NCBI RefSeq assembly: GCF_026341515.1
Contig: NZ_JAPEOK010000001.1
Span: 5,084,001-5,148,000, forward strand
Reading direction: 5' to 3'
DNA length: 64,000 nt
From: Streptomyces sp. NBC_00878
GTDB taxonomy: Bacteria > Actinomycetota > Actinomycetes > Streptomycetales > Streptomycetaceae
Shown: one piece after another, positions 48,099 to 48,452 of the stretch
Layout: every line of letters begins with the position of its first letter
How positions within the stretch are numbered: position 1 is the stretch's first letter
The notes under the pieces: generated by a model
Told to the model about the DNA's origin: nothing
The model's input: only the letters and a program-made list of their open reading frames with translations
Databases searched by the model: none
Made by a program: the position numbers and the translations under genes

Positions 48099-48223
48099 TC
48101 CCGGGCCCTCAACCGGACGCCATCCGGCCCTGGGAGCAGCCGACTTGCGCAGCACCCCCGCTGATCAGCTAGAGTCTGGAGCACGCCGAGGGGCAAGGTC
48201 GAAAGGTCCGGCCCCGGAGTCAC

Positions 48224-48295
48224 GCGGGTGTAGTTCAGTAGCAGAACATCCCCCTTCCAGGGGGAAGGCGCAGTGTGCAATTCCTGTCACCCGCT
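48224..48295 (+). tRNA. tRNA-Gly (TCC) with non-canonical D- and T-loops
   Basis: 72 nt. Acceptor GCGGGTG/CACCCGC and anticodon arm TCCCC-CTTCCAG-GGGGA are perfect, giving anticodon TCC (Gly). The D-arm GTTC-AGTAGCA-GAAC lacks the universal GG. The T-arm has GTGCAATTC where GTTCRANTC is expected, and its stem pairs poorly. Exactly such changes (no GG, GUGC for GT-psi-C) mark the staphylococcal tRNA-Gly species that escape EF-Tu and donate glycine to peptidoglycan. Streptomyces walls carry a glycine on LL-DAP, so a wall-dedicated role is possible. CCA is not encoded. It is followed 81 nt later by a normal tRNA-Gly. Confidence 0.88.
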
Positions 48296-48376: not shown

Positions 48377-48452
48377 GCGGACGTAGCTCAGTTGGTAGAG
48401 CGCAACCTTGCCAAGGTTGAGGTCGCCAGTTCGAACCTGGTCGTCCGCTCCA
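48377..48452 (+). tRNA. tRNA-Gly (GCC), CCA encoded
   Basis: 73 nt plus encoded CCA. Acceptor GCGGACG/CGTCCGC, D-loop with GG, anticodon loop TTGCCAA (GCC), T-loop TTCGAAC. The tRNA body is identical to the copy at 52439-52511. Confidence 0.97.

Follow-up and report, generated by a model that had tools for sequence, protein, structure and literature searches.

A conserved second tRNA-Gly(UCC) with an altered elbow in Streptomyces, a candidate glycine donor for the cell wall

Streptomyces genomes carry, in addition to a canonical set of glycine tRNAs, a real and selected tRNA-Gly(UCC) gene whose D-loop and T-arm depart from the usual design in the same way throughout the genus. We came upon it in a 64,000-nucleotide stretch of the Streptomyces sp. 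NBC_00878 genome (hereafter the window), where an earlier note, made by a model from the letters alone, had proposed a tRNA dedicated to peptidoglycan synthesis. From the analysis below we consider it probable (about 0.6) that this odd tRNA is a specialised extra tRNA, likely the glycine donor of FemX, which is kept partly out of translation.

The gene is recognised over the whole length of the RF00005 model at 51.1 bits (E 3.1e-9), above the curated cut-off of 29 bits, and the match begins and ends exactly where the earlier note had placed the gene (Table 1). It is nevertheless an outlier: ARAGORN, which reported six other tRNAs in its scan of the window, missed it, and by score it ranks 65th of the 66 RF00005 matches in the source genome (11.1 Mb, 6 contigs, 99.98% complete). 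The arms that had been called perfect are so on reading, as both the acceptor stem (GCGGGTG/CACCCGC) and the anticodon stem (TCCCC/GGGGA) are fully paired; the D-stem (GTTC/GAAC) is sound, and the discriminator T73 lies at 48295. The elements usually recognised by glycyl-tRNA synthetase, namely C35, C36, G1-C72, C2-G71 and U73, are all present in the window copy and in each of 30 distinct alleles.

Table 1. Features of the odd tRNA-Gly(UCC) gene and its surroundings, in window positions
Feature	Position	Strand	Basis or remark
Lsr2-like protein, 105 aa	47650..47967	+	Pfam PF11774 (E 9.4e-29) and PF23359
Promoter-like TTGCGC-N19-TAGAGT	48145..48175	+	upstream of the odd tRNA, by eye
Odd tRNA-Gly(UCC) gene, without encoded CCA	48224..48295	+	RF00005
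5' acceptor strand GCGGGTG	48224..48230	+	pairs with 48288-48294; read directly
D-loop AGTAGCA	48237..48243	+	A18 (48240) replaces G18; G19 (48241) kept
Anticodon loop CTTCCAG	48254..48260	+	TCC at 48256-48258 is the anticodon; T33 and A37 normal
T-arm GCAG-T-G TGCAATT CCTGT	48270..48287	+	T bulge at 48274; loop at 48276-48282
Canonical tRNA-Gly(GCC), downstream neighbour	48377..48452	+	ARAGORN

The deviations are concentrated in the elbow. Set against the canonical D-loops of the source genome, AGTGGTA in tRNA-Gly(CCC) and AATGGTA in tRNA-Gly(UCC), the D-loop of the odd tRNA differs by a single replacement, that of G18 by A; the earlier observation of a D-loop devoid of GG can be refined to this one change, G19 being kept. 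In the T-arm, the loop TGCAATT preceded by G gives GTGC at positions 53-56, where GTTC is usual; G55 is position 48277 of the window and C56 position 48278. Because A18 and G55 occur together, neither partner of the G18:Psi55 contact remains, whereas both partners of the G19:C56 contact are kept. The T-stem, already described as weak, consists of G49.U65, C50-G64, A51-U63 and G52-C62, then a bulged U, then G53-C61. That GTGC sets the gene apart from other tRNAs agrees with our finding of GTTCRA in all 55 distinct ARAGORN-found tRNAs read from the source genome, a weak control as ARAGORN itself favours this motif. The canonical UCC and CCC tRNAs of the same genome have the acceptor stem, U73 and anticodon arm layout in common with the odd tRNA, but their positions 18-19 are GG, their positions 53-56 GTTC, and their T-stem has no bulge; the tRNA-Gly(CCC) is the closest of five tRNAs compared, at 74% identity. 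In a pattern search, another unusual tRNA of the source genome had a D-loop without the GG pair, a tRNA-Leu(UAA) (L088 in G000) that we take to be of the bldA type.

Conservation of these features was followed from the genus outwards. Among 61 relatives searched at the DNA level, each of the 37 that belong to the genus carries the odd gene, and the 42 copies recovered by BLAST from these genomes (15 alleles) all carry the T-arm GCAGTGTGCRATYCCTGT together with the D-loop AGTAGYA, their T-arms being identical except at R57 and Y60. Across the order, 229 of 245 genomes gave a match in a T-arm pattern search that tolerates up to three mismatches. These comprise all 227 sampled from the genus, among them G125 with its 4.8 Mb, so that the GTGC form, whose conservation in other Streptomyces the earlier note had left as a question, is indeed conserved there. 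They also comprise two of the three genomes from other genera of the family (G206 and G238, the third being G265), and none of the 15 genomes from other families of the order. Among the matches listed, variation is confined to position 49 (G206 and G271) and to the acceptor of G206. Widening the pattern to any UCC tRNA-Gly-like sequence whose position 55 is A, C or G gave matches in 12 of 396 phylum genomes and in 40 of 394 class genomes (overlapping samples), all of them members of the genus; with the UCC anticodon and a large part of the D-arm specified, this search covers designs of this kind and would let others escape.

The contrast with the surrounding DNA is sharp. Over 91 distinct loci, in an ungapped comparison anchored on the odd gene, majority-letter conservation is 0.96 inside the gene and 0.44-0.56 in the flanks, and it stays at 0.96 when the T-arm motif that served to choose the loci is left out of the count. 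Since the sets of 91 or 92 loci and 30 alleles hold T-arm-motif loci only, with identical locus windows dropped, they cannot show the invariance of the T-arm, which is carried instead by the 42 BLAST copies and the three-mismatch search. They do bear on the D-loop, by which no allele was selected: A18 and G19 are invariant in all 30 (AGTAGTA or AGTAGCA). The stems, meanwhile, vary in the manner of a functional tRNA. Acceptor pairs are kept in all 30 alleles, one of which has exchanged G3-C70 for A-U on both sides; pair 27-43 is TA, CG or AT (a G-A mismatch in 2/30), and pair 11-24 is TA or CG. Wobble pairs occur at 30-40 of the anticodon stem (G.U, 2/30) and at 13-22 (U.G, 2/30), and the anticodon loop reads CTTCCAG in 18 alleles and TTTCCAA in 12. 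In the T-arm, position 57 varies within the purines and position 60 within the pyrimidines, and pair 49-65 is G.U in 29 alleles and A-U in one. Conservation combined with two-sided stem changes points to a tRNA under selection whose unusual elbow is frozen, and since the T-arm is kept in 42/42 copies while changes in the D- and anticodon stems affect both strands, the weakness of its T-stem is not the product of drift. Tandem arrays of two or three odd tRNAs are found in 7 of 92 loci. Two to four copies were counted in ten genomes (G018, G035, G036, G079, G093, G098, G120, G156, G179 and G267), in tandem where positions are given, G267 being represented by its count of four.

The odd tRNA does not stand in for a missing isoacceptor. 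ARAGORN reading of the source genome gives canonical UCC, CCC and GCC glycine tRNAs, and each of 37 genomes of the genus has a match of at least 93% identity to the canonical UCC gene, every match, the one in the source genome included, reading as tRNA-Gly(UCC) with GG and GTTC. The second, canonical UCC isoacceptor whose existence the earlier note had asked about is therefore present throughout this sample; a role of the odd tRNA as sole UCC isoacceptor is ruled out, and decoding does not need it. The note would have given up a dedicated role had the odd tRNA been the one UCC isoacceptor of the genome and a normal decoder that binds EF-Tu; on the first of these points the outcome is in its favour. 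In four genomes (G009, G019, G020 and G030), exact repeats of 42-43 bases from the 3' part of the canonical tRNA-Gly(UCC) lie about 6-10 kb away from it, the pattern expected of an integrative element with this tRNA as its attachment site.

The odd gene also keeps a fixed address. A gene for an Lsr2-like protein lies upstream in 92 of 92 distinct loci, at a distance of 89-500 bases, and a tRNA-Gly(GCC) follows within 117 bases in 90 of them by pattern, the other two showing by eye a GCGAACGT variant of the same tRNA; the conserved locus beside a normal tRNA-Gly(GCC) that had been proposed is thereby confirmed. Boxes resembling TTGCGC and TAGAGT, with variants, recur by eye in the 12 upstream regions inspected, and a consensus promoter scanner reported no site. 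In G265, a member of the same family, the syntenic locus (L205) has the order Lsr2-like gene, tRNA-Gly(GCC), tRNA-Gly(GCC) and no odd tRNA, which would reflect loss through conversion or else the ancestral condition. The same genome holds, at L221:2001-2073, a tRNA-like sequence of 35 bits with an ordinary T-arm and an odd anticodon arm.

On the side of the presumed consumer, passages of PMC4790382 describe the FemX of S. coelicolor as adding a single glycine to the stem peptide, in line with the LL-DAP-Gly bridge, made by a FemX-type enzyme, that the earlier note invoked, and passages of PMC4790382 and PMC6001138 describe VanK as adding a single glycine on D-Ala-D-Lac precursors. FemAB proteins were found in all 199 sampled genomes of the genus and in 28 of 34 mixed genomes tested. 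The source genome has three, among which the FemX candidate (L113) has as its best PDB match 6snr, an S. aureus-type 'Lipid II:glycine glycyltransferase' (E 5.1e-32), and shares 84-88% identity with FemAB proteins from G238 and from four further genomes in the genus. Physical linkage between the odd tRNA and femX was considered and rejected, the nearest FemAB gene lying about 216 kb away. The two also part company outside the genus. G265 (99% complete) has a FemAB protein (E 2.3e-30) and no match to the odd pattern, and the glycine tRNAs in the part of its 70 tRNA matches that was read are canonical UCC, CCC and GCC; FemAB without a match to the odd pattern was likewise found in all 12 tested f3 genomes and in G037. 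Fem enzymes can thus work without the odd tRNA, at least with the amino acid, whichever it is, that they carry in those relatives, and FemAB-bearing relatives that lack it, one of them in the same family, speak against a strict requirement.

Taken together, these results suggest the following course. The usual glycine identity features would allow charging by glycyl-tRNA synthetase. By analogy with Staphylococcus, the loss of G18:Psi55 through A18 and G55, the bulged U and the weak A51-U63 pair may then lower the affinity for EF-Tu, which would leave much of the glycine on this tRNA unspent on translation. The spared Gly-tRNA could serve as donor for FemX, and for VanK where present, and these enzymes would attach it to the LL-DAP stem peptide as a branch of one glycine. 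Glycine codons would meanwhile be decoded by the canonical UCC, CCC and GCC tRNAs, whose presence we observe. That the odd tRNA is dedicated, as the earlier note had it, is supported in part. The extra UCC isoacceptor, the frozen GTGC and the staphylococcal parallel argue for the term, while the retained G19, the G.U at 49-65 and the FemAB-bearing relatives without the tRNA argue against it; with G19, C56 and this G.U pair kept and A37 normal, the odd tRNA could still take some part in decoding. On balance, we regard a dedicated role as the best inference.

Several of the same features would suit an ordinary isoacceptor for GGA/GGG with a lineage-specific elbow, in which A18/G55 and the bulge compensate for each other and EF-Tu accepts the result. 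The normal T33 and A37, the retained G19, C56 and G49.U65, an anticodon stem that is sound in most alleles and the adjoining ordinary tRNA-Gly(GCC) all agree with such a tRNA. Yet a canonical UCC tRNA in 37/37 genomes of the genus already provides decoding, the deviation is frozen across the genus, and G55 in a UCC tRNA-Gly was otherwise found, in a scan of 84,980 species, almost only in Staphylococcus, so we hold this explanation to be unlikely. Less likely again is that the glycine goes to another Gly-tRNA-dependent enzyme, such as the FemAB-like DhpK or BD-12 Orf11. Passages of PMC12945691 describe such enzymes of Streptomyces antibiotic pathways as users of Gly-tRNA. Many genomes of the genus, moreover, show more FemAB matches than one protein gives. 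The odd tRNA, however, occurs in every sampled genome of the genus, although FemAB-like antibiotic pathways of the DhpK and BD-12 Orf11 type are strain-specific, and it is present also where only one FemAB protein was found (G018, G070, G093 and G099).

The remaining explanations concern the nature of the RNA itself. Folded as an unmodified single strand, the sequence prefers a 3' GCGC-AGU-GUGC hairpin over the bulged cloverleaf (-30.8 against -24.9 kcal/mol, part of the gap being due to extra anticodon-loop pairs), and this hairpin could replace the T-arm in a tRNA-like regulatory RNA, as a sensor or protein-binding element. Covariation does not decide here, since the single G-to-A change at position 49 fits T-arm and hairpin alike. 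A regulatory RNA is nevertheless hard to square with T-loop variation confined to the usual R57 and Y60 classes and with an acceptor stem, U73 and anticodon that are all kept, and we think it very improbable. As for a decaying or inactive gene copy, the failure of ARAGORN and the low rank among the tRNA matches are what one would expect of it, but about 96% conservation between divergent flanks in 91 loci, two-sided stem changes and presence in 227/227 sampled genomes of the genus contradict it, and we give it practically no credence.

The parallel for the preferred reading, an extra glycine tRNA that supplies FemX, lies in Staphylococcus. Scanning the genome_contigs collection (84,980 species) for UCC tRNA-Gly with GTGC, the Streptomyces D-loop being excluded, returned 28 stretches: 23 from Staphylococcus, two from Afipia and one each from a Chloroflexi MAG, an Enterorhabdus MAG and Bacteroidia, the last three having by eye no clean G55/C56 loop. 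The parallel drawn by the earlier note is therefore both real and specific. The Bacteroidia stretch (L260:2981-3054, MS499-65) is a tRNA-Gly(UCC) among four tRNA genes, with a T-loop TGTGCGT as against TTCGAAT-like ones. The Afipia sequences (L251:5119-5195 and L249) resemble tRNA-Gly(UCC) by eye: they have G55 and C56 and no GG in the D-loop, and a bulged U of the T-stem sits where it does in the odd tRNA; neither ARAGORN nor Rfam recognised this sequence. An integrase-like gene lies about 1 kb away on L251 (PF00589, E 3.5e-5, below the Pfam cut-off), and from this neighbour our guess would be that the sequence sits on a mobile element.

A bolder proposal can be framed from these likenesses. 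Wall-only glycine tRNAs might have originated on at least two occasions, once in Staphylococcus and once in the Streptomycetaceae, by breaking the G18:Psi55 contact with G55; the Streptomyces tRNA would be excluded from the ribosome by A18/G55 and the bulged U, glycine bridging would depend on it, and G55 might be a general code for escape from EF-Tu, as the bulge and G55 in Afipia hint. We put this forward tentatively and consider it doubtful in its full form. If the proposed role is true, a tRNA gene would encode how Gly-tRNA is divided between ribosome and wall across a large, genetically tractable genus, tying tRNA supply to wall synthesis, in an arrangement that would have arisen convergently with Staphylococcus. 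It would show which changes (G55, position 18, the T-stem) release a tRNA from EF-Tu, account for a second UCC isoacceptor in every sampled Streptomyces genome, and make the diversion of an aminoacyl-tRNA from translation testable by gene deletion in S. coelicolor. A search of the openly licensed literature found no report of a Streptomyces counterpart to the staphylococcal wall tRNA.

The wall function of an extra tRNA-Gly(UCC) is shown only for Staphylococcus, which belongs to another phylum than Streptomyces. According to passages of PMC8007984 and PMC4052509, an S. aureus tRNA-Gly(UCC) with altered D- and T-loops is charged well and binds EF-Tu poorly, and passages of these two papers and of PMC9976931 describe it as supplying the pentaglycine bridge. 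Both organisms have a canonical set of glycine tRNAs and, in addition to it, a further UCC isoacceptor, both combine GTGC (G55) in the T-loop with an altered D-loop and a weak A51-U63 pair (42/42 Streptomyces copies, 30/31 staphylococcal ones), and both have FemX-type glycyltransferases; tRNA-model scores are low in both, at 49 and 51.6 bits in S. schweitzeri and 51.1 bits for the odd tRNA. The differences are equally clear. All 31 staphylococcal copies read have a D-loop without GG and TGC in the T-loop. The staphylococcal type has G18 and G19 both replaced (UU or CU), whereas Streptomyces has A18 and keeps G19. Pair 49-65 is A-U in 30/31 staphylococcal copies and G.U in 29/30 Streptomyces alleles, the latter being a strong EF-Tu pair in the passages of PMC4052509; because G19 and this pair differ, we do not file the odd tRNA in the staphylococcal group. 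The bulged T-stem U is without a staphylococcal counterpart, position 37 is by eye C or T in Staphylococcus and A in Streptomyces, and ARAGORN recognises the staphylococcal tRNAs and misses the odd one. A looser likeness, by description only, is to the pseudo-tRNA tRNA-Other of B. cereus, likewise an odd tRNA, which PMC3399842 describes as not working in translation and whose deletion alters the cell wall. Finally, the odd tRNA is 68% identical to a staphylococcal tRNA, less than the 74% to the tRNA-Gly(CCC) of its own genome; with the different D-loop, the bulge found on one side only and C37 or T37, this led us to reject common descent, and the likeness looks convergent, a design that appears to have arisen in Streptomyces independently of the staphylococcal tRNA-Gly.
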